IMG/VR virus record: IMGVR_UViG_3300005830_000219
Span: 1 to 20,148 of that record
Length of the DNA stretch: 20,148 nucleotides
Direction: 5' to 3' (one strand)
Origin: a virus
Position 1 is the stretch's first letter; each line of letters opens with the position of its first letter. Below the pieces are notes generated by a model that saw only the letters and a list, made by a program, of their open reading frames with translations, was not told the origin of the DNA and did no database searches. Of this stretch, positions 5,886 to 19,995 are shown in pieces. The translations under genes were made by a program, and so were the position numbers.

Positions 5886-6674
5886 TTATGCGCCCATACC
5901 CATGGTCGGCATTCCTGGTCCATATGGAGAGTATCCGTAGCCGTACGGTACGGGACTCCACCCGCCACCATAAGCCAGAGGAGTAGTACTCGTTGCTTCT
6001 AACTGACGAGCTGCCCAAGGAACTCCTTTGTACAAGCCGTATCCCAGTCCAGCCGCCCCCACCCAAGGCAACGCCCTCCCCCAACCCATACCACTCGAGC
6101 TACTCTTGGGTGCAGGCTGGGGCATTTGTTGCGTCGAAGGTGCCTGTTTTGGTGCTGGGGCAGTTTGAGGCGCCGGTGCTACTCTTCCTGGAGTAGATGC
6201 CGCCGGCTGGCCTGGGGCGCCACGCTGCTTATTGTAAGCAGCGTTAGGTGACATCTTAGGTTTCGGCTTAGCTGCCCAGTCTCTAGACTGCCGAGCTAAT
6301 GCAGGATCCGGCTTGGGTGTCCTTTTCAGAACACTTCCCACTCTAGACTTGACCCCGGTTGCTCCCTTAGCAACAGCCCCTGCCGCTCCTACCGCCTTGG
6401 ATTTAATTGTGCGGCCGAAGCGCTTAGCCAACACACCGAAATACCCAGCTTCTTTGAGCATGTCGTACTCTTCAGAAGACAAGCCACCCGAGTACACCAT
6501 AGATTGAGCAAGTTTATCTATGCCGCCTTCAGTGCGGGCGTGCGCCATAAATACACCAGCCATGCCGGCTAATTTTTCTACGGCTGCATCTTGCGCGAGC
6601 TGTCTGCCTAGTAAATCAGCGGATTGAACAGCGGCCAGCTTCGCCAAGACCTCATGTTGAGGTACTAAGCGCAT
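5886..6674 (-). CDS. predicted membrane-active virion protein, 262 aa
   Basis: This is the last gene of the late operon, starting three bases after the tail tube gene's stop. The N-terminal 60 residues are helical and carry three similar motifs, LAKLAAVQ, VEKLAGMAG and IDKLAQSMV. Residues about 90-115 are Gly/Ala/Lys-rich, 120-195 form a Pro/Ala-rich linker, and 202-220 form a short hydrophobic Gly-rich segment (WVGAAGLGYGLYKGV). The tail is Tyr/Gly/Pro/Met-rich. This resembles a flexible virion protein with a membrane-interacting segment, rather than an enzyme. The ribosome-binding site is weak, consistent with coupling to the upstream gene. Confidence 0.65.
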   Translation of the reverse strand: MRLVPQHEVLAKLAAVQSADLLGRQLAQDAAVEKLAGMAGVFMAHARTEGGIDKLAQSMVYSGGLSSEEYDMLKEAGYFGVLAKRFGRTIKSKAVGAAGAVAKGATGVKSRVGSVLKRTPKPDPALARQSRDWAAKPKPKMSPNAAYNKQRGAPGQPAASTPGRVAPAPQTAPAPKQAPSTQQMPQPAPKSSSSGMGWGRALPWVGAAGLGYGLYKGVPWAARQLEATSTTPLAYGGGWSPVPYGYGYSPYGPGMPTMGMGA

Positions 6675-7417: not shown

Positions 7418-7825
7418 TTACGATAGCCCGCGCGCTTTCCTAACTTCGGCGAGATCGATCACTTTTCCGGTTCCTCGTTTTGTTTTTAAACCACTTACAA
7501 TATTTTTGGCCTCGTTACGTAGTTTCTTGTATTCTCTGTCACTTACAAGATTTTCGGCCTCATTAAGTAGCCGCTTGTACTCTTTGACGCCCCGTTCTGC
7601 TTTGCTGATGCGCCTACCTATATCATCTGTTTGTTGCTGAAGAGTGCGAGCACTCTTCAAATACGGATTAACTCTGGGACCTCTTCCCCGCTTCACGGCC
7701 AAGCCGATAGCCGCCGCCGTACCTAACGCAGCACCACCAATAGCCAGCCTCTTCTTCCAGTTTGGTTTTTTTGCCTCTTCGGCAACTGCTATCTTCTCCA
7801 GCTCGTCAAAAAATGAAGTGTACAT
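7418..7825 (-). CDS. Gly-zipper protein with N-terminal FFDELEKIA tag, 135 aa
   Basis: The product begins MYTSFFDELEKIA, followed by a basic patch and a Gly/Ala-rich hydrophobic segment (LAIGGAALGTAAAIGLAV, residues 27-44). The rest is a charged coiled-coil-like region with a tandem 16-residue repeat at residues 80-111. The ATG at 7825 is chosen because GGGAG lies nine bases upstream; the ATG at 7834 directly abuts that site. It sits between the sheath and tube genes. The tag is nearly identical to that of the 112-residue product at 12096-12434. I infer a small membrane-interacting virion protein; the exact role is unknown. Confidence 0.75.
   Translation of the reverse strand: MYTSFFDELEKIAVAEEAKKPNWKKRLAIGGAALGTAAAIGLAVKRGRGPRVNPYLKSARTLQQQTDDIGRRISKAERGVKEYKRLLNEAENLVSDREYKKLRNEAKNIVSGLKTKRGTGKVIDLAEVRKARGLS
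7492..7587 (-). repeat. 48-bp imperfect tandem repeat within a coding region
   Basis: Bases 7492-7539 and 7540-7587 align without gaps with about 38 of 48 identical by eye. Each unit encodes 16 residues of the form EYK-(K/R)-L-x-NEA-x-N-(L/I)-VS. The reading frame is kept, which suggests a recent in-frame duplication in the coiled-coil part of the 135-residue protein. Confidence 0.7.
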
Positions 7826-7852
7826 CGGCGTCATCTCCCTATTCCATGCGCC

Positions 7853-10800
7853 TTAGATTACGAGCGTTAAACGAATGTAATTGCAGGGATATGGAACATC
7901 GAGTGTGACGTCGATGAGTACCGTATCTGGTGCAGTCGAATCCTGTATAATGTTGTTCAGATCACCGCCAACAAGGACCCCAGATTCAGTAAGGAACAGG
8001 AGTTGACCCTGTACTACCGTACTGAGAGTGTCGAGGAACGGCTGGGTGATATTGAACTTGCCGATGAAGTTGCGGAGACCAGCCCTCATGAACTTCGCCG
8101 CGAAGTCCACAACTTTGGTGATCGACAACTCCCGAGACTCGATGCTTGTCAGATCCGTGGTGAGTTGGTGCCGGCAAGTCAGTGGACCTCCAGCTACTTC
8201 CTGGATGACCCAGTATGTTCCACCTGCGGCCCCGACATTCATTTGGCTCTGCGTGAACACGTCGTTCGAGCCGAAAGGACGCGTGAATCCGGAGATTGGG
8301 AAGTTGGTGAATCCCTGTTGTGGCGGCTGCTGCCCCACCATTCCGGCGATGGCGGCACACAGATAGTACCCTGGAATCTGCTGCTCTACCGAATCTATGG
8401 TAGCCCCGACCAATTCAGGCGCCACCATGATAACGCGGCGGTTATCGTATACGGCGCCCAGGCCCTGATACGCCTCAGAGATAGAGGAGTAGTCAGGGTC
8501 TCCGTCACTGGTAACGAGGTCAGAACCCCTTACGTTGATAGAAAAAGTCTCGGATATCAAGCTGCTGGACAAGTTGGAGGTAGAGTAGAATGAGTCATCA
8601 TTCTCCCCGGGGGCAAAGGATACTCTAATGGTAACCTTCGTGCCGCTAATAGCCGAGATATTATACTTCTTGGAATCCGAAGAGATGTCCAAATAGAGCC
8701 CTTCGGTAACCGGGATAGTGCCTACCGGGTCTACTCCCGCCGCCAACACATCGGCGGCTATCGAGGCGATCTTCGTGTCGAACTCATTGGTAACGGCAGT
8801 GCTGTCACCATCTGTTCCGCTTAGGGCCAACTCTGGGAGACCTTCGCCCGGCATCTCCGGGTTTATGAAAACGATCCGTTCGCCCTTTGCGTCTGGATCT
8901 GACTGGGCGTCCACATGCGTCATGAACAGCTGGTGCACCACCGGGTCCTGTGAGGCAGGGGCCAGCGCGTAGACTTCCTCTGACTCCAGGAAAGATAGCG
9001 CTTTAGTATACGCCGCCGGCGTGCCGTCCGGGTTAGCCGTGCTGGTCTCGTCCAGCCCAATACCGGTCACTGTTACTCCGGGAGCATTGATGAGCATGAA
9101 GTACAGCATCAATGCCAGGGGATTGTCGGCATTGATGGGAGATAGCGCATCCTCGAGGTCGTCTGTATCATCCAGATTCAACAGCCCCGGAGTGGTCGCT
9201 GCCGGGGATACGTCTAGTCTCAATGCATCATAGGCAATGACAAGAGAACCGGTAGCCACGATGGGGTTACCCTCAGTATCTCTAAGAAAGTCGTGTTTGA
9301 TTTGGGCTTCCCCTCCTACACCAATAACCAGATCCGGTTTGGGCCTGTCGCTGGGTAGCGTAGATGGGATATTCTCAGACTGGATGTAGTAATAAAGCCA
9401 TCCAGTGTTTGCCGTATTGGCTACTTCTCTGTCTAATTTCAGACGGTTGCTGTATCCGCCGGGCATAACTACCGCGATATACCCTATGAGGGTGCCCTCT
9501 GCCCACACAGCATCCCCCACTTTCGGAGAAAATGGAGTCCCGTAATCTACGGCCTCGGCAGTGAACCCGAGCAGGGTATTGGCTGTGCCGTTTCCAATCT
9601 CGATCTTGGACTCGTACCCATCCGTGGTGGACAGTAGTTTGACATAAGTCGAGCTGTCCGAGGCAAATGCGGCGCCCATCGTAGCATTGATTTGTACGAT
9701 AAGCTCTGCAAGAGAAATGGTCTGCGTGAGGTCCGCAGTACCGGTAAGGCCCAGATCTGCCCAAGCAGTACCGGTAGCGGCTGAGTAGTCCAAGTATATC
9801 GAACCGCCAGAAATAGCTGTAGAACCGCCCACTTGCCAGGCTAAGTACCCGCCGCCTGGGGTAGCTGTACCCGTGGCATCGGATTCGTAGCATACCGTCA
9901 TGCCGGCAGCCGTATTGATTTGGGAAATGACCGATGCGATGGCTATTGGGTCGCCACCACTAAATGTCACCAGCTTGTCCACGCCGTTGACATTGAATCC
10001 GAATGCGGCAGAAGTCAGCGTGTTGCCTACGACGAATATGTTCGCTCCGACAATGGGACCGGCGTCGAAGATCACCTCTTGCATATCGCCGCCGTCTACC
10101 GCCACCTCAAAAGTCAGGTTGTGGAGCTCGAGCTCAGTAGCTACAGCCACCGTACCGGTAATGGTCGCACTATCTGCAGGGGCGTTGAAATTCTCCTGAT
10201 CCATTACGATGAATGGTGTTCTGGTATCTCCATCCCCGTCATCTACCGGCTCCACGGTGTAAGCCTTGCCACCATCAGTCCAACCGAGGGCAGCATGCGC
10301 TGAACTGGCGCTCGGCGTGACTACTTCGAAATAGCCGTAGTCGCTCTTGGCATCCAGAAGCGTGCCATTGGCCGAGAATTCGAGACCAGTAAGGGCCGAA
10401 GTCAACGTATTCATGGCGATCACTAAATCTGCCAAGTTGCCAGGCTCACTGGAGAATGTGAATTCTTGTGTCGTGCCGCCGCTTTGGTATTTAAACGCGA
10501 ACTTTTTGGAGTTGTACGTTGACGCGCCATAAGTCAACGTTCCGCTGGTGTAGGTCGCTCCCTTATAGTTTCTGAGGAACGCTGTGTCTCTCTTGAACTC
10601 TTTCAGTGCTGTCCCATACGTGGTGGCGAAGACCCGAATAGAGGATTCATCCACATCCAATTCATCGATAATACCCCTGGGATCCGGGAAATTTGCCTGT
10701 GCGATCGTAAGGGCCGTCTGATCGTACGTGGATACTCCCTCTGAGATATAGAAGTCGTTGAATCCTAGTACGGAGTTGGCATCACCGTTCGTGACTTTGA

Positions 10801-11242
10801 TGCTCTGGCCGTCGCCAGTGGCGGTAGTCCTCAACATCAAATACTCGGAGGCGCCGACTGTGTGTACGTACGCTCCGAATCCAGATGGGGCCGGGCTTTC
10901 TGCAGCAATCTGATCTTTGACCGTTCCTACACTTAGTCCGGCAGCAGTCGGATCACTGAAGGTAAACTCCTGTACTGCACCATTGTTTATGCTGACTTTG
11001 AGTATCAGCCCATCCAAGCCCGAATACGGACCTGGGTTTGCGGCAATCAGAATACCGGGCACCGATGCTACTGCATCGGTATTCAGAACGCTGTTGCCCG
11101 TAGCATCTTGCTCCAATGCTTCCAGTACTTGAAAGGCCGGGGCAATGGCACACGGGACCAACGTTGGAGTCACGATCGTCGGGCTGACAGACCGGAATCT
11201 CTGTATTACTGATACGCCAGGACGAAGAAGTTCAGTAGCCAT
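7853..11242 (-). CDS. giant tail sheath protein with inserted beta-rich repeats
   Basis: The 1129-residue product begins with a sheath-like N-terminus (LRPGVSVIQRFRSVSPTIVTPTLVP). Its last ~150 residues match the conserved sheath C-terminal domain (GFTRPFGSNDVF, IESRELSITKVVDFAAKFMR, ending in NYIRLTLVI). Known sheath subunits are much shorter (T4 gp18 is 659 residues). The extra length lies mostly at residues 75-565, where about four beta-rich units end in LGF, LGW, LGL and LGF near 160, 320, 498 and 559. They share a helix such as VISQIN or LIVQIN, reminiscent of flagellin IN-motif domains. GGAGG precedes the ATG. Sheath subunits form the contractile sleeve around the tube. Confidence 0.88.
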   Translation of the reverse strand: MATELLRPGVSVIQRFRSVSPTIVTPTLVPCAIAPAFQVLEALEQDATGNSVLNTDAVASVPGILIAANPGPYSGLDGLILKVSINNGAVQEFTFSDPTAAGLSVGTVKDQIAAESPAPSGFGAYVHTVGASEYLMLRTTATGDGQSIKVTNGDANSVLGFNDFYISEGVSTYDQTALTIAQANFPDPRGIIDELDVDESSIRVFATTYGTALKEFKRDTAFLRNYKGATYTSGTLTYGASTYNSKKFAFKYQSGGTTQEFTFSSEPGNLADLVIAMNTLTSALTGLEFSANGTLLDAKSDYGYFEVVTPSASSAHAALGWTDGGKAYTVEPVDDGDGDTRTPFIVMDQENFNAPADSATITGTVAVATELELHNLTFEVAVDGGDMQEVIFDAGPIVGANIFVVGNTLTSAAFGFNVNGVDKLVTFSGGDPIAIASVISQINTAAGMTVCYESDATGTATPGGGYLAWQVGGSTAISGGSIYLDYSAATGTAWADLGLTGTADLTQTISLAELIVQINATMGAAFASDSSTYVKLLSTTDGYESKIEIGNGTANTLLGFTAEAVDYGTPFSPKVGDAVWAEGTLIGYIAVVMPGGYSNRLKLDREVANTANTGWLYYYIQSENIPSTLPSDRPKPDLVIGVGGEAQIKHDFLRDTEGNPIVATGSLVIAYDALRLDVSPAATTPGLLNLDDTDDLEDALSPINADNPLALMLYFMLINAPGVTVTGIGLDETSTANPDGTPAAYTKALSFLESEEVYALAPASQDPVVHQLFMTHVDAQSDPDAKGERIVFINPEMPGEGLPELALSGTDGDSTAVTNEFDTKIASIAADVLAAGVDPVGTIPVTEGLYLDISSDSKKYNISAISGTKVTIRVSFAPGENDDSFYSTSNLSSSLISETFSINVRGSDLVTSDGDPDYSSISEAYQGLGAVYDNRRVIMVAPELVGATIDSVEQQIPGYYLCAAIAGMVGQQPPQQGFTNFPISGFTRPFGSNDVFTQSQMNVGAAGGTYWVIQEVAGGPLTCRHQLTTDLTSIESRELSITKVVDFAAKFMRAGLRNFIGKFNITQPFLDTLSTVVQGQLLFLTESGVLVGGDLNNIIQDSTAPDTVLIDVTLDVPYPCNYIRLTLVI

Positions 11243-11254
11243 TACGGGCCTCCT

Positions 11255-12112
11255 CTAAACCTTGAATTCACCCTCAATAGGAATCGATACTAATTCCTCT
11301 TGAGGAGCCTGTTGAATTACTCTACCCCTAATTTGAGGGGGCCTGAGCACATTCATTCGCGCAGCTTTAGCGCTGGCTTGTGTTTGTGCCGCGGCTTCTC
11401 CCCAAAGTATGGGCCCGCCATCTTGGGCGTTGGTTAAATTAGACATCGCTCTACCCATTCTCGTCTGTAATCGCATACCGATATTCCGAAGAGAATGAAT
11501 TGGGCGCCCACTCCAGTCGTGCTTCAGCGGCGTGACTGAGTCTGTCCACTGCAAAAAGAATGGACAAGACACCTGAACACTGTGCCACTCACCTTCCGTA
11601 TCCCCCTGTACTAGTGCTCCAGCAGGAGATATGGGACCGATACTAATATTGCGTCCAACGTCATGAATATGTGATTCACGTACGAATAGTTTGCGGAGTA
11701 TCCAGATATTCCTGGCGCATTGCCATCCTATAAATCTGGCTTCTTGCGGAACCCTGGACAGGCAATTCAGCGTCATCGTGCCAGGAATAAGGTCGGTATG
11801 AACTTCTTTGGCATTGGTGATGGATACATGTACCAAGTCATCCAACGACGACCCATTGAATCTAGTGGGCCCCATAATCACAGAAATAGCCGGTTTCTGT
11901 TCCTTAGACTCTAGAAGAACGGGATTTTCTTCTGTTATCACCAGTTCTGTTTCTTCTGTCAAAGGCGACCAATGCATATACCCTTTGGGGGCCTCTTCCC
12001 AAATAGTCTGCAGAAAGGCTATGAAAGCCTTCACAGCGTAGTTCAACGGATCTTCGAGCCAACTGGTCTCTATCTGTCCGTCACTATGAATTGTGCTAGT
12101 TGGGTCTGTCAT
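11255..12112 (-). CDS. tail-terminator-like virion protein, 285 aa
   Basis: The product lies between a head-closure-like gene and the sheath gene, where myoviruses often encode the tail terminator. Its middle carries PAISVIMGPTRFNG, DLIPGTMTLNCLS, and a long stretch with HDVGRNISIGPISP and EWHSVQVSCPFFLQWTD, a strand-helix-strand pattern that I associate with tail-terminator or tail-completion proteins. The tail is Gln/Ala/Arg-rich. AAGG precedes the ATG, which lies inside the 3' end of the upstream gene. The assignment is from position and fold pattern, not from a diagnostic motif. Confidence 0.5.
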   Translation of the reverse strand: MTDPTSTIHSDGQIETSWLEDPLNYAVKAFIAFLQTIWEEAPKGYMHWSPLTEETELVITEENPVLLESKEQKPAISVIMGPTRFNGSSLDDLVHVSITNAKEVHTDLIPGTMTLNCLSRVPQEARFIGWQCARNIWILRKLFVRESHIHDVGRNISIGPISPAGALVQGDTEGEWHSVQVSCPFFLQWTDSVTPLKHDWSGRPIHSLRNIGMRLQTRMGRAMSNLTNAQDGGPILWGEAAAQTQASAKAARMNVLRPPQIRGRVIQQAPQEELVSIPIEGEFKV

Positions 12113-12434
12113 CGCCCTTCTCTACATGCCTGAAGTGCATCTTTGTTCTGTGCATACCCAGTCCGGCTCCACCCGCCAGTAGCGCTCCTACTGCCAAAGG
12201 AGCAGCCTTCATAGCTGTCGGATGTTTCTTCAAAAAATCCCCTATCTTACCCTTATTTTTCAGGAGCTCTCTTTTAGCTAAGCCTCCCAAGCCAGCACCT
12301 ACGCCCATGCCGGCGCCTATAGCTGCTACGGCCTTCAAATGCCTCTTGAACCCGCCTTTAGGAATATCCTTGCGCTGCTCTTCGGCAATCTTTTCCAGCT
12401 CATCAAACAGTCCTATGTAGCTAATCATTTCCAT
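12096..12434 (-). CDS. Gly-zipper protein with N-terminal LFDELEKIA tag, 112 aa
   Basis: The protein begins MEMISYIGLFDELEKIA, nearly the same tag as the 135-residue protein at 7418-7825. Two Gly/Ala-rich hydrophobic segments follow, AVAAIGAGMGVGAGLGGLA and APLAVGALLAGGAGLG, separated by a Lys-rich loop, so a membrane hairpin is likely. The tail is basic. The ATG at 12434 is nine bases from GGAG. ATGs at 12440, 12428 and 12476 are also in frame, so the exact start is uncertain by a few residues. It overlaps both neighbours. A virion or ejection role is inferred. Confidence 0.7.
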   Translation of the reverse strand: MEMISYIGLFDELEKIAEEQRKDIPKGGFKRHLKAVAAIGAGMGVGAGLGGLAKRELLKNKGKIGDFLKKHPTAMKAAPLAVGALLAGGAGLGMHRTKMHFRHVEKGDDRPN

Positions 12435-13332
12435 ATCCATAGACTCCAAATGCGTGTTTGATGGCCTCTTTTTCAAAACTCTCCAAATTCTGAGGATTGG
12501 TAAAGTTCCTACCAGGACTTGGTTCGAAGTCTCTCAGATCATCTACCCTTATGGGAAGCTGGAACTCGATATCGCCTTTCGCGATTTCATGTAGAACCAG
12601 CTCTTGATGCACGACGCTTCTTAACCTCTCCGTGGTAGTTACTCTGGCTACTCTCCACCGCCTATTCTCAGTCTCAACAATTATATCCCTAGGCTTAACC
12701 AGTGGGAAGTTGGGCAATCTGGCCGACGTGTCCACTTGTTGCCTCTCTGCTATTGGAAGCAGTTGGTTAGCTTTGGGGCTAGGGTCGATCTGCATGAATA
12801 TTTCTATGGGATCGAAATACCCACGAACAAATGACGTGCTGTAGCACGTCAAGCAGTGTGATCTCTGCCTCTGGGACGTGAATCCCTTGCCTTTGTCGGG
12901 GCCATCGTAGCAGTGGGGGCATCTTTGTCCGAATGTTCTTACCGGGAATATGAAACATCGGCGCCCTGCAAACTCTTCCCACACTAGGCGCTCAAGTCTC
13001 TGAATCTCGGCGGCGATGAGATCGGGCTCAGCATGAAATGTCGCGGCGTCTGACTCTGAGATGTTGGTGGTGTCAGCTTTCTCGGTGCTGACGATCTTGT
13101 AATAAAGTTGTCGCCAGCGATTGAGTAGGTTGACCCTGTTATCTACGAATCTGTAACGATCTTCGAATGGGCCGGCGACTTGGTCCCACGGCCCCATAGG
13201 AGATTCGCTCCTGAAAATATCCAATTGGAAATCGTGCACGTCTAAAGTCGTGTTTTCGATCTCCCAGGTAATCTCCAGAAAATCCAGAGAGAAGCTCCGG
13301 ATCAACAGATTTTTAAATACCAGGTTAGCCAC
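12421..13332 (-). CDS. head-closure-like virion protein with zinc ribbon, 303 aa
   Basis: Three parts can be seen. Residues 1-95 look like a fibronectin type III-like beta sandwich (LDFLEITWEI, FQLDIFRSESPMGPW, LYYKIVST). Residues 138-163 form a zinc ribbon, CPHC and CLTC separated by 18 residues. Residues 210-260 carry KPRDIIVETENRRWRVARV and VHQELVLHEI, which resemble the barrel of head-closure or head-tail adaptor proteins (SPP1 gp16-like). The GTG start overlaps the upstream stop. Its place before the tail-terminator-like and sheath genes supports a neck role. I am confident it is a virion protein and less sure of the exact neck position. Confidence 0.6.
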   Translation of the reverse strand: MANLVFKNLLIRSFSLDFLEITWEIENTTLDVHDFQLDIFRSESPMGPWDQVAGPFEDRYRFVDNRVNLLNRWRQLYYKIVSTEKADTTNISESDAATFHAEPDLIAAEIQRLERLVWEEFAGRRCFIFPVRTFGQRCPHCYDGPDKGKGFTSQRQRSHCLTCYSTSFVRGYFDPIEIFMQIDPSPKANQLLPIAERQQVDTSARLPNFPLVKPRDIIVETENRRWRVARVTTTERLRSVVHQELVLHEIAKGDIEFQLPIRVDDLRDFEPSPGRNFTNPQNLESFEKEAIKHAFGVYGYGND

Positions 13333-14303
13333 TATACGCCTTTCTTATCCAATAATTCTCTCAGCGCCTTAGCTTGCCTGACTCCAGTAATCGCTCCAGA
13401 CGCACCACCAAGAGCCGCTCCTGCAGCCATCAACTTGCCTCTCCCTAACACTAAACCTGGAATGGCTCCGCCTACTGCGCCGCCCATGCCATACGTCAAT
13501 CCACGCCGCACCGGGCTAGTCAGACCCTTTATCTTCTGGTCTTCGATGTCCTTATCGATGGTTTCCCTATTCAGCCTGCGTACTTCATCTAAGCGAGAGC
13601 CAGACAACTTCGCCAATTCCTTACCGGCCAAATGTGAGGAAGCTACCTTAATGTGAGCAGGGGCTTTCTTAGCTATTTTCCAGGCCCTCATGGCTATTTT
13701 AGCCTTCATGGCTGCAGTGGTTTCCATGCCGCCTGCGCCTCCCATGCCCATTCCTCCCGTCCCCATACCTGTTCCTATTCCACCCGCAGAACCCATATCT
13801 CCTACGCCTTGAGATACCTTCATCTTGCTGGCGATACTTACTGCCTTTTTCCTAACTTCTAGAGGCTGCCCCTTGCCCATTTTCAGAGTAGAAGAGAGCG
13901 CTTTTGCTTTCTTCTTGGCTTCTGGGGAGGTGAACTCGTCTGTCTTAGTCATGCAGCCAGACGCCGCAATCTTCTGTATACGCCTGATCATTGCCTCTTT
14001 TACTGCGTCTTTGCCGGGACCTTGGTAGCTCACACTACTGGTCTCTTCAGATTCTTTTCGTGTAGGCGGTTCTTGACCTTGAATTTTGGCTGCGTAGTCA
14101 TCAACCCTTTTTTGAGCTTTATCCAGCTCTCCATTCTCAGAATCAGGCAATATAGCCTCGACTGGGCCGGCAACACCCACCTTCGCCAATCCCAAGAACT
14201 CCTCGAGCTCATCGACGGGCAAGGTATTCATGAAGTAGCCCAGGTCGGCAGCAGCAATCTTTGTTTGTTCCTCTTTATACAGACTCGCTAAAAAGTTATC
14301 CAT
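13332..14303 (-). CDS. Gly-rich, predicted membrane-active virion protein, 323 aa
   Basis: The ATG at 14303 has GGAGGAG six bases upstream and overlaps the previous stop. The upstream extension of the frame lies antisense in character over the GPP-rich tail of the neighbouring gene and was rejected. The N-terminus (MDNFLASLYKEEQTKIAAAD, then VDELEEFLGLAKVG) recalls the DELEKIA tag. Two more KIA motifs occur near residues 112 and 203. Residues 170-192 are a Gly/Met-rich low-complexity linker. Residues 270-306 are a Gly-zipper hydrophobic hairpin (YGMGGAVGGAIPGLVLG, then LMAAGAALGGASGAITG). It is likely a structural or internal virion protein. No enzyme motif is seen. Confidence 0.65.
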   Translation of the reverse strand: MDNFLASLYKEEQTKIAAADLGYFMNTLPVDELEEFLGLAKVGVAGPVEAILPDSENGELDKAQKRVDDYAAKIQGQEPPTRKESEETSSVSYQGPGKDAVKEAMIRRIQKIAASGCMTKTDEFTSPEAKKKAKALSSTLKMGKGQPLEVRKKAVSIASKMKVSQGVGDMGSAGGIGTGMGTGGMGMGGAGGMETTAAMKAKIAMRAWKIAKKAPAHIKVASSHLAGKELAKLSGSRLDEVRRLNRETIDKDIEDQKIKGLTSPVRRGLTYGMGGAVGGAIPGLVLGRGKLMAAGAALGGASGAITGVRQAKALRELLDKKGV

Positions 14304-15846
14304 TGTTCGCTCCTCCTGCTGCCGGTGGTCCGGCCGGTGGTACTGCGGGCGGTCCCATTGGTCCGCCTGGCGGTGGTCCTTGTGGTGGTACGGGAGGCGG
14401 CCCCATTGGAGGACCACCTAATTCGGGAGGTGGTCCGGCTTCTGGAGGCGTGCCCTCCATGCCGCCCTCCGGTCCCATCGGCGGTCCTTCCGGTCCCATT
14501 GGAGGACCGCCTGGTCCCATAGGCATAGGACCCTGTGGCACCGCTGGAGGTCCCAGTAGTTGTGTAGGATCCTGTGCCACCAAATCCATAAGGGACTGCC
14601 TGAAATTGGTAACTGCTTGACGCAGTTGAATGTTCGCTTGTTGTGCTTGCAGTGATTCTTCGCGCGCCTGAACCGAATCTTGTGACGCTATCTGAGCTTG
14701 CTGTGTAGCTACTTGAGCCTGTTGACCAATTTGCTGCTCACGCATGGCGCTTTCCTGCGCTTGCTGATTAGCCATGTCACTGGTTTGCTGCAGCTGCCCC
14801 TCGGCCATTTCAGCCCGTTCGGCCTCCTGCTGAGCAGCCATCTCCGCTTCTTCGGCCCTCTGTCTATAGAACTCAGCTTCATTAGCAGCTTGTTGAGCTT
14901 GGAGTAAGATTTCGACTGGATCTTGCTCGCCAGATAGAGCTGCTTGTTGTGCTGCCTCTTGCATGGGATCGAGCTGGGGAACTACCGGCGCCTCTACCGG
15001 GATGGCGTCATCTGTTATGGGCATCACGTCTTCTTGCGCCTTCTTCTCCAACTTCTCTTTCATTTTCCTGCGTACTGCGTGTATGCCGGCCCCTGTTAGA
15101 AGGCCTGCCCCTAATCCAGTAAGAGCGGACTTAGCTAAAAGTCCTCTGTTCATCGAGTCTTTGAGTACGCTGGGAAGTTTACTTAACATAGACGCCTTAT
15201 TACCTACTGCTTTGGCGATATTGGCGTCTGCTTTAGCTAGTCTGAGAGCCCTGGAGCCGCCTCCCATAGCTGCCCCGGTAATGCCTCCGCCAACCAGCAA
15301 AGGCGTAGGACTTTTCTTCTTGTCCTCCGCCTCTTTGTCGAAATCGGAATTCTTCTCGATCATTGCCTGCTTTGGTACCGGGCGAGCTCTCATTCGTGCT
15401 CGAATGAGTCGTGCGTCTGTCTCCTCGCCTATGGCCTTTCCGCCCGTGTAACCTAAAACCGTGCCCAAAGCAGCTCCGGCTAATCGATTCTTTTTGCTCA
15501 ACAAAGCCCCGCCAGCGGCTCCCGCAAGACTGCCTAAGGTCTTGCCGGCACGTTCACCCCGCTTGCGGCGAACAGCATTACGCCTGCCCATATCCCCAGA
15601 AACAGTACTACGTACCCCAGATAGGTAGCCGCTCTTTACTGCCTTAGCGATATCTTCACCGGTGATGGGATCTGAGTCGATTGCCGCCACTTTGGTCTTC
15701 TCAACCACATCTTGCAGATCTTCAATGTCTTCTTGAAGCAGACCTCCAGAAGCGATTTTGAGTTTTAAAAAGTGCTCAGCCGCAGCGTGCCAAGGAATCT
15801 CACGGCTCTCACCCTCTTTCAACAAATTGTATAATTCCTGGCTCAC
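14296..15846 (-). CDS. multidomain Gly-zipper, Gln-rich coiled-coil, GPP-tailed protein, 516 aa
   Basis: The GTG at 15846 has AGGAGGT just upstream. Residues 1-60 are helical and include LKLKIASGG and VEKTKVAAI. Residues 100-140, 183-200 and 240-256 are Gly/Ala-rich hydrophobic segments with basic flanks, and SDFDKEAEDKKK precedes the second. Residues 295-425 form a long Gln/Ala/Glu coiled coil. Residues 432-516 are Pro/Gly/Met-rich (GPPMGPEG-type repeats). This layout suggests an extended virion component that can contact membrane, perhaps an internal or ejection protein. No homolog is recognised. Confidence 0.65.
   Translation of the reverse strand: MSQELYNLLKEGESREIPWHAAAEHFLKLKIASGGLLQEDIEDLQDVVEKTKVAAIDSDPITGEDIAKAVKSGYLSGVRSTVSGDMGRRNAVRRKRGERAGKTLGSLAGAAGGALLSKKNRLAGAALGTVLGYTGGKAIGEETDARLIRARMRARPVPKQAMIEKNSDFDKEAEDKKKSPTPLLVGGGITGAAMGGGSRALRLAKADANIAKAVGNKASMLSKLPSVLKDSMNRGLLAKSALTGLGAGLLTGAGIHAVRRKMKEKLEKKAQEDVMPITDDAIPVEAPVVPQLDPMQEAAQQAALSGEQDPVEILLQAQQAANEAEFYRQRAEEAEMAAQQEAERAEMAEGQLQQTSDMANQQAQESAMREQQIGQQAQVATQQAQIASQDSVQAREESLQAQQANIQLRQAVTNFRQSLMDLVAQDPTQLLGPPAVPQGPMPMGPGGPPMGPEGPPMGPEGGMEGTPPEAGPPPELGGPPMGPPPVPPQGPPPGGPMGPPAVPPAGPPAAGGANNG
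14299..14553 (-). repeat. low-complexity GPP/GPM-encoding repeat region
   Basis: This segment encodes the last ~85 residues of the 516-residue protein. It is built from near-repeats of units such as GGTCCCATTGGAGGACC on the plus strand, encoding G-P-P-M-G-P. The periodicity is irregular. It is a likely site for length variation between related phages. Confidence 0.6.
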
Positions 15847-15855
15847 GGAGACCTC

Positions 15856-16311
15856 CTATTGGTGAACTACGGTGAACTTGTTTCCGCCTTCGTCCGTGGT
15901 GATAACGGCTATATCGGCCAACGCAACCGCATTAGCTCCCACAGTGCTATCGGCGGCCGTATTTAGTCCAAAGCTGGCGTTGGCAGTGCCGTCTTTGTCT
16001 ATGAGATCGCCTGCCTGTGTAAACGTAAGATGGTAAGACGGCGGTGTTGAGTGACGATAATTGCGGAAAGACGCAATTCCTACCATATCAGCGTTTACTG
16101 CCTCCATTTGGGCAATTATTTCTGGTGGGGACAGGCCTGCATTAGTCGCATCAGCAAACGTCACTGTGCGTATAGTACCTACAGGAGTCACTATCAGCGT
16201 CAAACCATGAAGGCCGTAAACTTTAACACCTACAGCCTTTCCTTGAACAACATCGTTCAGGTAATCTGTCATCTCCTGAGCCGTGTCGAATTGCTTTAAT
16301 GTGAATGCCAT
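15856..16311 (-). CDS. stand-alone relative of the sheath repeat domain, 151 aa
   Basis: After a short helical N-terminus (FDTAQEMTDYLNDVVQ), residues 35-118 show the same layout as the repeats in the giant sheath protein. GLTLIVTPVGTIRTVTF, then DATNAGLS, a helix (EIIAQMEAV), strands, and GTANASFGLN line up with sheath residues 76-162 (GLILKVSINN, TFSDPTAAGLS, VKDQIAA, DANSVLGFN). This indicates common ancestry. GGAGG lies five bases before the ATG. Its role could be a small virion decoration, a connector or a sheath partner; sequence alone does not decide. Confidence 0.65.
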   Translation of the reverse strand: MAFTLKQFDTAQEMTDYLNDVVQGKAVGVKVYGLHGLTLIVTPVGTIRTVTFADATNAGLSPPEIIAQMEAVNADMVGIASFRNYRHSTPPSYHLTFTQAGDLIDKDGTANASFGLNTAADSTVGANAVALADIAVITTDEGGNKFTVVHQ

Positions 16312-16320
16312 CTAGGCCTC

Positions 16321-16836
16321 CTAATACGCGCCAAACCACCCGTTGACGAAAAAATACTCACTGTGGACGCCACTGAAACTTCCAAGAAGGTTGGCTATGT
16401 TCAGCGACACCTTCTTTTGCATCTTCTCTTGTTCATACTTGTTTTGGAACTGATTGATCCACTGCATCAGCATAGGAGCTTTGTCTGATACAGCTACGCT
16501 GATACCCCCATCAGAGAAATTTAAATGATTTCTCGTCTGCAAGATCCCTACAGACTGTAAGAGAGCTACAGATGTGCCGCGCACAGCAAATGACTGATAG
16601 TGCATCTCCAATAACTGCTCAAGTGTGTAGTACCCAAGGGGTGGTGGGGTGCCTGCAAAATCGCTGAGGAAGTCCAAGATTGCCCAGGCAATCATCCGGT
16701 CGGAATGTTCTTCTCCCTTTACCAGTCGATTGAGCTGTGGGTGGTCTCGGAGGAACAGGCGCACGGTATAGATAAAGGAAGCGAACGTGCTGCTAACCCC
16801 GGGGATCCCACCCAATCCTTGCAATTGCTGCGTCAT
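16321..16836 (-). CDS. putative connector or neck virion protein, 171 aa
   Basis: The ATG overlaps the stop of the upstream HhH gene (ATGA). The product is mostly helical, with TVRLFLRDHPQLNRL, an IAWAILDFLSDFAG segment, and LLEMHYQSFAVRGTSVALLQSVG. It then has a short beta part and ends in YFFVNGWFGAY. Position downstream of the capsid and HhH genes and upstream of the neck and tail genes suggests a head-tail connector or other structural role. No diagnostic motif is present. Confidence 0.5.
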   Translation of the reverse strand: MTQQLQGLGGIPGVSSTFASFIYTVRLFLRDHPQLNRLVKGEEHSDRMIAWAILDFLSDFAGTPPPLGYYTLEQLLEMHYQSFAVRGTSVALLQSVGILQTRNHLNFSDGGISVAVSDKAPMLMQWINQFQNKYEQEKMQKKVSLNIANLLGSFSGVHSEYFFVNGWFGAY

Positions 16837-17285
16837 TCACTACCTTCCCCGAGCTTACTTGCTGCCTCCTCTATGATGGAAGCTGCCACTGCTTGCTCGA
16901 TCTGCAACAGTTCTCCCAGCTCTGCGGGAGACATGAGATCCACAAGCTGCTGGAATGTGAATATCTTCTTGTCGTTCAGCTTTCGTACTCGACTGGCTCC
17001 TATGTTTGCCAGTTCTGTCAAATCATCCTGTTTGGGGAGCTCTGGGAGCTTGTCCGCAACAGGAACAGCTTTATCGACGTCGGGTTTGGAATTTTGTTGT
17101 ACCTTGTAGCCCTGGATCGTGATCAGATTCAGGTCCGCTAAGTGCTTAGCCTGGTTGGAGAAAGCTACACGATCTGGTAGGTCATCCTGTATCTCTCCCC
17201 TGGGGTCTATGACCCTTCCATCCGACAAAACTTTCCACCCTAACATCTCGACTGTTCTACCTGCGATATTGCTGACCTTTGGCAT
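16833..17285 (-). CDS. helix-hairpin-helix protein B, 150 aa
   Basis: The C-terminal third has a helix-hairpin-helix-like unit, DDLTELANIGASRVRKLN, then an IFTFQQLVDL helix and an Ala/Glu-rich end. The IGASRVRKL hairpin resembles the DNA- or protein-binding HhH units of DUF4332-type proteins. The N-terminal half is beta-like and includes LSDGRVIDPRG. The gene is a clear relative of the preceding 200-residue gene, which has DDLTVLPGIGASRVRKLN in the same place. It follows that gene after three bases. A capsid- or DNA-associated role is plausible. Confidence 0.7.
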   Translation of the reverse strand: MPKVSNIAGRTVEMLGWKVLSDGRVIDPRGEIQDDLPDRVAFSNQAKHLADLNLITIQGYKVQQNSKPDVDKAVPVADKLPELPKQDDLTELANIGASRVRKLNDKKIFTFQQLVDLMSPAELGELLQIEQAVAASIIEEAASKLGEGSE

Positions 17286-17288
17286 GGC

Positions 17289-17891
17289 TCACACCAGTCC
17301 TTTGGCAGCTTGTACAGCTTCCTCAGCCACCTCTTCGGCTACCAGTAGTATTTCGACCAGTTTAGCCGGGCTAGCATTCGCGACGTCCGCGAATGTGTGG
17401 ATACCTGCGGCATTCAACTTCCGCACACGACTCGCCCCAATTCCGGGCAATACTGTCAAGTCGTCTGGTTCTTTTGGTTTCTTCGGAGTCGGAATGGGTT
17501 CTTCCGGCTCTAATGCGTTCTCTACCATTTTCGGCAACGGCTTGGGCTCTACCGGAGCAGCCTCAGTCTCGACTACTTTCGCAGCCCCATCTATTCGACG
17601 GTGCACTATGCGCCCATCAGGCAATGCACTGACTCTGGTACCATCTGGCAAATGTAGAGCCACTTTCCCAGCCAGCATCAACTCTTGGATCTTGGCCTCG
17701 AATTTTTTGTAGTTCTCTTCGGTCAGTGGCAATCTCTTGTTGCGCAGAATGCGTTGCTCTCCGAGAAAAATCTTGAATCGGTGTCGTGTGGCAGACCGCG
17801 CCCGATGGAGGCGCGTGCCCACACGGCGTACCGTGTTCTCCACGTAATAGATAGGTTTTGCTACCTTCTCGTTTTTGCCTTCATCAGACAT
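17289..17891 (-). CDS. helix-hairpin-helix protein A, 200 aa
   Basis: The first 60 residues are strongly basic (RRVGTRLHRARSATRHRFK), a region likely to bind nucleic acid or an acidic surface. A short beta segment (LPDGTRVSALPDGRIVHRR), a Pro/Glu/Lys linker and a C-terminal helix-hairpin-helix (LTVLPGIGASRVRKLN, residues about 145-160) follow. The second ATG (17891) is preferred because GGAGG lies five bases away; the first (17894) is only two bases away. The T-run of the terminator behind the capsid gene directly precedes this ribosome-binding site. It is a paralog of the next gene. Confidence 0.7.
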   Translation of the reverse strand: MSDEGKNEKVAKPIYYVENTVRRVGTRLHRARSATRHRFKIFLGEQRILRNKRLPLTEENYKKFEAKIQELMLAGKVALHLPDGTRVSALPDGRIVHRRIDGAAKVVETEAAPVEPKPLPKMVENALEPEEPIPTPKKPKEPDDLTVLPGIGASRVRKLNAAGIHTFADVANASPAKLVEILLVAEEVAEEAVQAAKGLV

Positions 17892-17904
17892 CATATCCTC
17901 CTAG

Positions 17905-17975: not shown

Positions 17976-19097
17976 CTAGAAAACCTCTACACCTGGGTAC
18001 ACAAGGCCATCTTCTACGCGGTTGTTCTCGGCTCCGAGGTCTTCCTCGGCTACGGGAATAACGTTGGCTAAGATGCCGTCCGTGTCATTCGACGTGGCGT
18101 CACCGGAGTAGAGCTCCAGTTTACGCACAGCCGCGATGTTGATTACGCTGATGGCGATGTCTTCCCAAGACTGCCACGTGATCAAATTCGCGATCTTGTC
18201 GATGTAGAACTTAGTGTTGTTCAGGATGTAGAACCGGCCGAAGAAGTCTGGCTTCGTGAAGCAGTACACGTTACCCGGGCGGAGGATATCCGTCTTGATG
18301 GTTCTGGTGTACTGACGTCCAAGAAGCAGATTGTACTTGTATCCGTCGACCGTGGTTTCTGACTGTAGCTTGTCGCCGAAGTCTTCTACCGTCCACTGGA
18401 GGATGTCGTCCCAATCCACTTCTGTGATCAAGACCATTTCCGCGCGGAGACGATTTCCGTCAATCATCTTATAGAGATTGACGAGGTCAGGACGCTGGAT
18501 CGGGAGAACCGTTCCATCGTCCGTAGAAGCTGCACGAGCCAGCTCGCCTTTGCGGACGCTGAATTCCACAACGGAACCGGCCGCAATTGCGGTAGCATTG
18601 AGCGCTGTGGCAGTCCCGCCATTCGCTTCTGTCTGAAGGGCCTGTACGGCCGCTTCGATGTGTGTCGTGAACTCTCTGTCCTCGATTTCTTGGATGTCCT
18701 TCACCGAGTTATCCTCGATAACCTTGGTGATGGGCATTTCGTAGGCCAGGAGCTCCTGCTCGGTCTTCTCGAATTTCTCCGAGGAGATCGTGTAGAAGGG
18801 CACCTCTGCCCGGGGGGCACGGATGAATCGAGCCGTGGGCTGGCCTCTGAAGGTGATGGCCATCGCGCGGCTTTTTGGCTCCACGTCGATGATCTTCACC
18901 AGCGTATCGTGATTCACGGAACGCTGACAATCTGCCCTGGTCACATTCTGTGGGGGGATGATTTTCCGGGCGTAACTTACTTCGCGCAGCCTATCCCTGA
19001 TGTAGGTGCCGGCGTACTCTGCGATCTTTTCTTTACCCTCGGCCGTACCGACCTTATGGGTAAAGAGATCATTCAATACTCTTGCAGGAACACTCAT
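17976..19097 (-). CDS. major capsid protein (HK97-like fold)
   Basis: The 373-residue product has features of HK97-fold capsid proteins: an N-terminal helical arm, then ITFRGQPTARFIRAPRAEVP and a long helix (EKTEQELLAYEMPI) resembling the E-loop/spine region. The A-domain-like C-terminal half includes FYILNNTKFYIDKIANLITWQSWEDIAISVINIAAVRKLELYSG. Capsid subunits assemble into the icosahedral head. AAGGAG precedes the ATG. A decoration-like gene precedes it and a strong terminator follows it, which fits a highly expressed major structural gene. The family call is by pattern; no alignment was possible. Confidence 0.82.
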   Translation of the reverse strand: MSVPARVLNDLFTHKVGTAEGKEKIAEYAGTYIRDRLREVSYARKIIPPQNVTRADCQRSVNHDTLVKIIDVEPKSRAMAITFRGQPTARFIRAPRAEVPFYTISSEKFEKTEQELLAYEMPITKVIEDNSVKDIQEIEDREFTTHIEAAVQALQTEANGGTATALNATAIAAGSVVEFSVRKGELARAASTDDGTVLPIQRPDLVNLYKMIDGNRLRAEMVLITEVDWDDILQWTVEDFGDKLQSETTVDGYKYNLLLGRQYTRTIKTDILRPGNVYCFTKPDFFGRFYILNNTKFYIDKIANLITWQSWEDIAISVINIAAVRKLELYSGDATSNDTDGILANVIPVAEEDLGAENNRVEDGLVYPGVEVF

Positions 19098-19608: not shown

Positions 19609-19995
19609 CTACTCGGAGATCCCTCCCAGCAAGTACGCCGTAAGCTGGTCACCACCGTTCCCAGGCATCTCTTCTGCGAGTTTTGCGAAGTCACCATTGG
19701 GTGCCGTCATTTCGACAGCTTCCTCGATGACATCTAGGGACCTTCCTCGCTCAGCAGCCTCCTTGATTCGCTCGATCTTATCTTCCATGCTCGACGCGAC
19801 ATCGATGCCTTTGTCATGCATAGCACGAGCTATTTTCTCAATTCGGTCACTTCGTTCGTACTCGGCCACTTTCTCTTGCAGAGATCTGTTCGCGATTCTC
19901 AGCTTGTCCCGTTCCGCAGCTAGTTTCCGGAGGACCCCAGGAACTTCCGCGTAGACAGCCGCTGCTTTTGCTGCGCTGATCTTTTGGGTGCTCAT
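19609..19995 (-). CDS. coiled-coil capsid-assembly-like protein, 128 aa
   Basis: The product is almost entirely helical and charged. About residues 20-60 form a heptad-like coiled coil (LRKLAAERDKLRIANRSL), followed by IEKIARAMHDKG and a second helix rich in Glu and Arg. FAKLAEEM lies near the end. A small coiled-coil protein encoded upstream of the capsid genes could be a scaffold or assembly factor. It contains the LEKIA-like motif type seen in several late proteins. AGGAGGT precedes the ATG. There is no direct evidence of scaffold activity. Confidence 0.55.
   Translation of the reverse strand: MSTQKISAAKAAAVYAEVPGVLRKLAAERDKLRIANRSLQEKVAEYERSDRIEKIARAMHDKGIDVASSMEDKIERIKEAAERGRSLDVIEEAVEMTAPNGDFAKLAEEMPGNGGDQLTAYLLGGISE

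Follow-up and report, generated by a model that had tools for sequence, protein, structure and literature searches.

Our analysis revealed that large, mostly uncultured phages carry a short N-terminal tag with the consensus [ASG]-F-x-D-E-L-[EQ]-K-[IVL]-[AGS], located at residues 3-18, on proteins with unrelated bodies, up to about 14 per genome. The tag is likely a capsid-targeting propeptide that would dock in the prohead and be cut after K-x-A, its body being packed and ejected. In the proposed mechanism, the tag ([ASG]-F-x-D-E-L-[EQ]-K-[IVL]-A), as an N-terminal helix of amphipathic character, would dock the cargo on one of the components within the growing prohead; the prohead protease of the lineage would cut after the terminal K-x-A, as well as at sites of the same kind on the major capsid protein (MCP), scaffold-like proteins and the protease itself; and the freed body would be packaged alongside the DNA, to be ejected into the host. 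The stretch of DNA analyzed (the window, 20,148 nucleotides) is part of the genome of an uncultured phage with a contractile tail, in which the original prediction had described a common start on two proteins; this observation is real and extends far more widely than described there.

Both minus-strand ORFs with the common N-terminal tag were confirmed (Table 1). The 135-aa protein begins with MYTSFFDELEKIA and the 112-aa protein with MEMISYIGLFDELEKIA; the start given earlier for the latter lacked the initial MEM. When the tag was included, the sole BLASTP alignment between the two proteins comprised 12/19 identities across the tag, and with the tag excluded the bodies yielded no alignment at E<=100. 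Thus, the bodies behind the common start are different, as had been claimed, and full-length paralogy of the two proteins was ruled out. The chance of any common 8-mer near the N-termini of the window's 16 genes is about 6e-6. In orthologs of the 112-aa protein, whose homologs had been proposed as a check, the tag is retained in 8/8 aligned sequences (the window's counted) and the linker is variable. The AlphaFold model of this protein (pLDDT 56) has a helix at residues 4-19, over the tag, and is too poor for use. A PHROGs search with the two proteins gave nothing useful, and megablast of the window against cultured phages found no match.

Table 1. Coordinates of the features discussed, in positions of the window.
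Feature	Coordinates	Strand	Remarks
262-aa protein, tail block, untagged	5886..6674	-	five phi-x-K-x-A motifs, 0.55 expected; four in first 76 residues
Tagged candidate cargo protein 1	7418..7825	-	135-aa ORF; Gly/Ala segment, then basic coiled body
Tag FFDELEKIA	7787..7813	-	residues 5-13 of the 135-aa protein; fits the family consensus in sequence
Tail sheath	7853..11242	-	phrog_279, E 1.7e-14; zero phi-x-K-x-A motifs
Tagged candidate cargo protein 2	12096..12434	-	112-aa ORF; Gly-zipper body
Tag LFDELEKIA	12384..12410	-	residues 9-17 of the 112-aa protein, from sequence
Protein	13332..14300	-	three phi-x-K-x-A motifs, 1.05 expected
516-aa protein	14296..15846	-	four phi-x-K-x-A motifs, 0.88 expected
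Major capsid protein (MCP)	17976..19097	-	phrog_2522, E 3e-8; PDB 6wkk gp27, E 1e-5
MCP K24-x-A26	19020..19028	-	invariant near N-terminus; putative head-protease site, P5 not hydrophobic
128-aa head-block protein	19609..19995	-	three phi-x-K-x-A motifs, 0.35 expected

Assignment of both genes to the tail block was right by position, given the identity of the sheath gene. In the window, the tagged 135-aa gene lies at the junction between the sheath and probable tail tube genes, where there are only 68 bases in G016 and genes for HELGH/HEMGH peptidase-like or other proteins in G001, G002 and G017; as its content differs among relatives, the 135-aa gene occupies a variable slot.

To assess the spread of the tag, 2.9 million viral contigs were scanned strictly for DNA that would encode F-[FYWLC]-D-E-[LF]-[EQK]-K-[IV]-A at any position; a match was scored as N-terminal if at most 20 codons separated it from a start and the frame upstream was short. 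Matches were N-terminal in 41/58 cases; in GTDB bacterial genomes, the same pattern was N-terminal in just 8/80. A relaxed scan of the viral contigs gave N-terminal positions for 87/117 among the matches listed. Over 15 whole or nearly whole relatives and the window, the forward pattern had 118 matches vs. 4 for the reversed one; 40 forward matches were scored as non-N-terminal, most of them with a start codon nearby upstream. Information content is 3.6 bits at the final A, 0.9 at the next residue and about 0.4 beyond; because some motif positions were preset in the scans, the logo is partly imposed there, while the drop after A is not. The tag is conserved at the protein level and its codons vary. 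Genome-specific versions were observed, such as MNF[QE]-AFFDEL (G027), MIDFSAF-DE (G056) and MN-F[EQ]-GFFDEL (G025): tags on unrelated bodies agree at 1.41 of the four positions preceding F when paired within a genome and at 0.57 when paired between genomes, a within-genome likeness reached by 0/500 label permutations. Tag sequence strings were not found in the open literature available. In G029, about 14 tagged genes, every one with a different body, form a 10-kb cluster (17.8-27.3 kb).

The bodies behind the tag are diverse. BLASTP clustering placed 133 tagged ORFs in 93 body clusters, and the 93 tags of 15 genomes in 70, counts that include a few tag calls due to chance or start-site errors. 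Three tagged proteins have SNF2 helicase bodies (500-720 aa), and one carries an inorganic-pyrophosphatase (InPase) domain (E 1e-45). Other bodies that could be named are a permuted papain-like amidase C92 and a GNAT + glyoxalase protein; weak matches were obtained to a zinc peptidase, PARP and a protein kinase, and many further bodies are Gly-zipper or Pro/Ala-rich. Among these erroneous calls are L377, actually part of NrdD, and L326, a DUF3310 protein of doubtful placement. The 70-93 unrelated bodies, the strictly N-terminal position and the genome-specific versions give strong support to the original view that the peptide is a signal and not a fold. Its description of the tagged proteins as small and membrane-active is too narrow for the SNF2 helicases of 500-720 aa, the InPase, the C92 amidase, the GNAT protein and other enzymes. 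The tagged proteins could in principle be ancient paralogs with bodies no longer recognizable as related, the start being kept by chance or for translation, and adjacent clusters of tagged genes in G029, G025 and G056 fit such a history; with bodies of unrelated known folds, conservation that stops at one residue, and constraint on the protein but not on its codons, we regard it as very improbable.

Homologs that keep a body without the peptide, named in advance as evidence against a targeting tag, do occur. Tagged bodies had 52 homologs in other genomes; the tag is kept in 40 of these and not visible in 12, but several of the 12 retain K-x-A before the body. The motif directly precedes the body in untagged SNF2 helicase homologs (FEKIA, CVKLA) and in untagged InPase fusions (MAKQA, AVKLA). 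Such retention is more in keeping with a cut site than with a fixed domain. Two InPase fusions (G001:38190, plus strand, 562 aa, and G002:86089, plus strand, 608 aa) contain many internal phi-x-K-x-[AGS] sites, and the former also has an internal tag, LLQELQKIG; to judge by these sites, the two proteins look as if cut into several effectors.

The last five residues of the tag match [LIVMF]-x-K-x-A, and this motif is concentrated in the head genes. Over 16 kb on the upstream side of the MCP gene, 154 occurrences were observed vs. about 39 expected from shuffled proteins (about 4-fold; 37 for the reversed motif), and in the distal part of the genome 135 vs. 123 (about 1x), gene calling behind these block counts being incomplete in several genomes. 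In the tail block the motif is below expectation, and none was found in the sheath or the probable tube. Sites in head proteins have L/M/I at -2, E at -1, I/T at +1 and S/A/E/Q after A; their logo, L/M/I-E-K-I/T-A, agrees with the end of the tag, while the contexts after A differ. The K24-x-A26 site is invariant in MCPs near that of the window and is kept in the MCPs of the cultured Salmonella phage Arash and Vibrio phage D69. Two features of the MCPs count against cleavage at K-x-A: the site lacks a hydrophobic P5, and some relatives in other clades have K-x-G or no such site there. The untagged 262-aa protein of the tail block (Table 1) is possibly a further cut head protein or ejected protein, to judge by its motifs.

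A candidate protease was found in Arash, whose MCP is 27% identical and in whose head proteins [LIVMF]-x-K-x-A is likewise over-represented. Arash gp222 matches the head-maturation-protease family phrog_18299 (E 2e-6); gp222 and L012:4847-6769 had no Pfam match. In the alignment of clade homologs, His (HH.NK) and Ser (SM) are invariant, and six gp222 homologs all have K-x-A immediately ahead of the predicted prohead-protease domain. The N-termini read in Arash and D69, which do have the K-x-A motif, showed no FDELEK tag, a point against the proposal. Phage G was considered as a cultured phage in which to check for cleavage of the MCP and was rejected, as no N-terminal cut is visible in its MCP (gp27 gene, 282 codons; solved chain, 280 residues). 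Intein models (Hint and LAGLIDADG) match the head-protease homolog L013:2827-6846 (G002) in two places, and this homolog probably carries two inteins.

These data also bear on whether the tag is cut at all. It might instead be a docking helix that binds a hub of the head or virion (e.g., the scaffold, the inner face of the MCP or the portal) and stays on, K-x-A being a part of that helix that is left uncut. The tag has an amphipathic pattern (-4, -3, 0, 4, 7, 8), its final position accepts A, G or S, and the residue after it is weakly constrained (A in 30%), the last point counting against cleavage. Docking alone, however, does not account for K-x-A without DELEK in head-block proteins and directly before the protease domain, nor for its retention before the same body in homologs with a swapped N-terminus, and we consider it unlikely.

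The tag is linked to one MCP family, itself related to the phage G-like family through the profile match to 6wkk (E 1e-5, two weak stretches). Among tagged contigs of at least 110 kb, the window's MCP family was present in 21/21, 20 of them with an N-terminal tag match; four contigs with chance-like internal matches alone were without it, these contigs being shorter. The motif FWxGFxKxA, which we take to be an alternative with the same spacing as the tag (F, +4, K at +6, A at +8), was also found on unrelated proteins, N-terminally in 38/57 matches, and the window's MCP family was present in 8/16 of the FWxGFxKxA contigs tested. Seven MCPs of these contigs fall in one clade (99/99), the eighth row being a mis-extracted frame. 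FWxGFEKQA is this sister clade's version of the tag, with an SNF2 helicase among the proteins that bear it. The version of the tag tracks the MCP clade. Several FWxGFEKQA copies per genome were noted (L488, L467, L455 and other loci), often preceded by EKTA. The AlphaFold model of the MCP (pLDDT 31) is too poor for use.

A destination other than the prohead, such as the tail lumen, the host membrane or an intracellular phage compartment, would agree with the position of both window genes next to the sheath gene, with the Gly-zipper segments of many bodies, and with the many tagged genes that lie far from the head block, a distribution that counts against prohead targeting. It is nevertheless quite improbable, given that K-x-A is concentrated in the head block and lacking in the sheath and probable tube, and that tag versions go with MCP clades.

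Enrichment of K-x-A in the head block only, together with co-occurrence with one MCP family, lends indirect support to the likeness to T4 capsid targeting suggested earlier; by sequence, the tag is not a T4 capsid-targeting sequence (CTS). Cleavage of the T4 type follows an acidic residue (L/I-x-E), while the conserved end here is K-x-A, within the core F-x-D-E-L-E-K-I-A. The CTS of T4 IPI-III is an N-terminal propeptide of 10-19 residues that targets divergent proteins to the core of the prohead and that the prohead protease (gp21) cleaves (PMC9026906); CTS-bearing proteins are exchanged among related phages. A short N-terminal peptide common to unrelated bodies is found here too; the MCP family is another one, and the cargo comprises dozens of families including large enzymes. 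In phage P1, the N-terminal signal of DarB (>9 and <=30 residues) is enough to package a reporter, and there is no consensus signal among the Dar proteins (PMC9024508). DarB belongs to the SNF2 ATPase/methylase class, resembling the tagged SNF2 helicases; in contrast to P1, a single consensus is common to many cargos here. In SPN3US/phiKZ, the prohead protease gp245 cuts many head proteins, including abundant ejected ones, at a short motif, and short N-terminal propeptides of 20 and 24 residues occur (PMC10052503); the motif there is A-x-E, unlike K-x-A, and a common targeting tag is not described in the text available. Polyvalent proteins with InPase, SNF2, ART and peptidase domains were predicted to be virion-packed and injected (Iyer et al., 2017; PMC5512222). 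Our SNF2 helicase and InPase cargo, with the two InPase fusions bearing repeated K-x-A sites, resembles these proteins; that work concerns domains, and a search by keyword found no common N-terminal address tag. The tagged SNF2 helicase and InPase classes are thus among those proposed or known to be injected (PMC5512222, PMC9024508). On the best reading of these comparisons, the signal would work like the capsid targeting of T4 and P1, yet be different from both and lineage-wide.

Injected proteins are the first phage products that a cell meets, and they are hard to recognize, their bodies being unrelated and mostly nameless. If the proposal is true, a consensus address would make it possible to list them for thousands of uncultured phages on the basis of genome sequence only. 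It would also identify the site at which an unstudied prohead protease cuts, and add a programmable protein-packaging signal beside those of T4 and P1. More tentatively, the tag may be a readable, lineage-wide address code for injected proteins, with clade versions (DELEK, FWxGF) co-evolving with the head, some 15 codons being enough to switch injection, and fusions with internal K-x-A being cut into several effectors in the head.

Two further features of the window were noted. The very long sheath (1129 aa) contains repeated segments like EFTFSDPTAAGLS, and a separate 151-aa gene (15856-16311) encodes a segment, TVTFADATNAGLS, resembling them. The genes at 16833-17285 and 17289-17894, adjoining the MCP gene, encode near-identical C-terminal helix-hairpin-helix-like segments (NIGASRVRKLN and GIGASRVRKLN).
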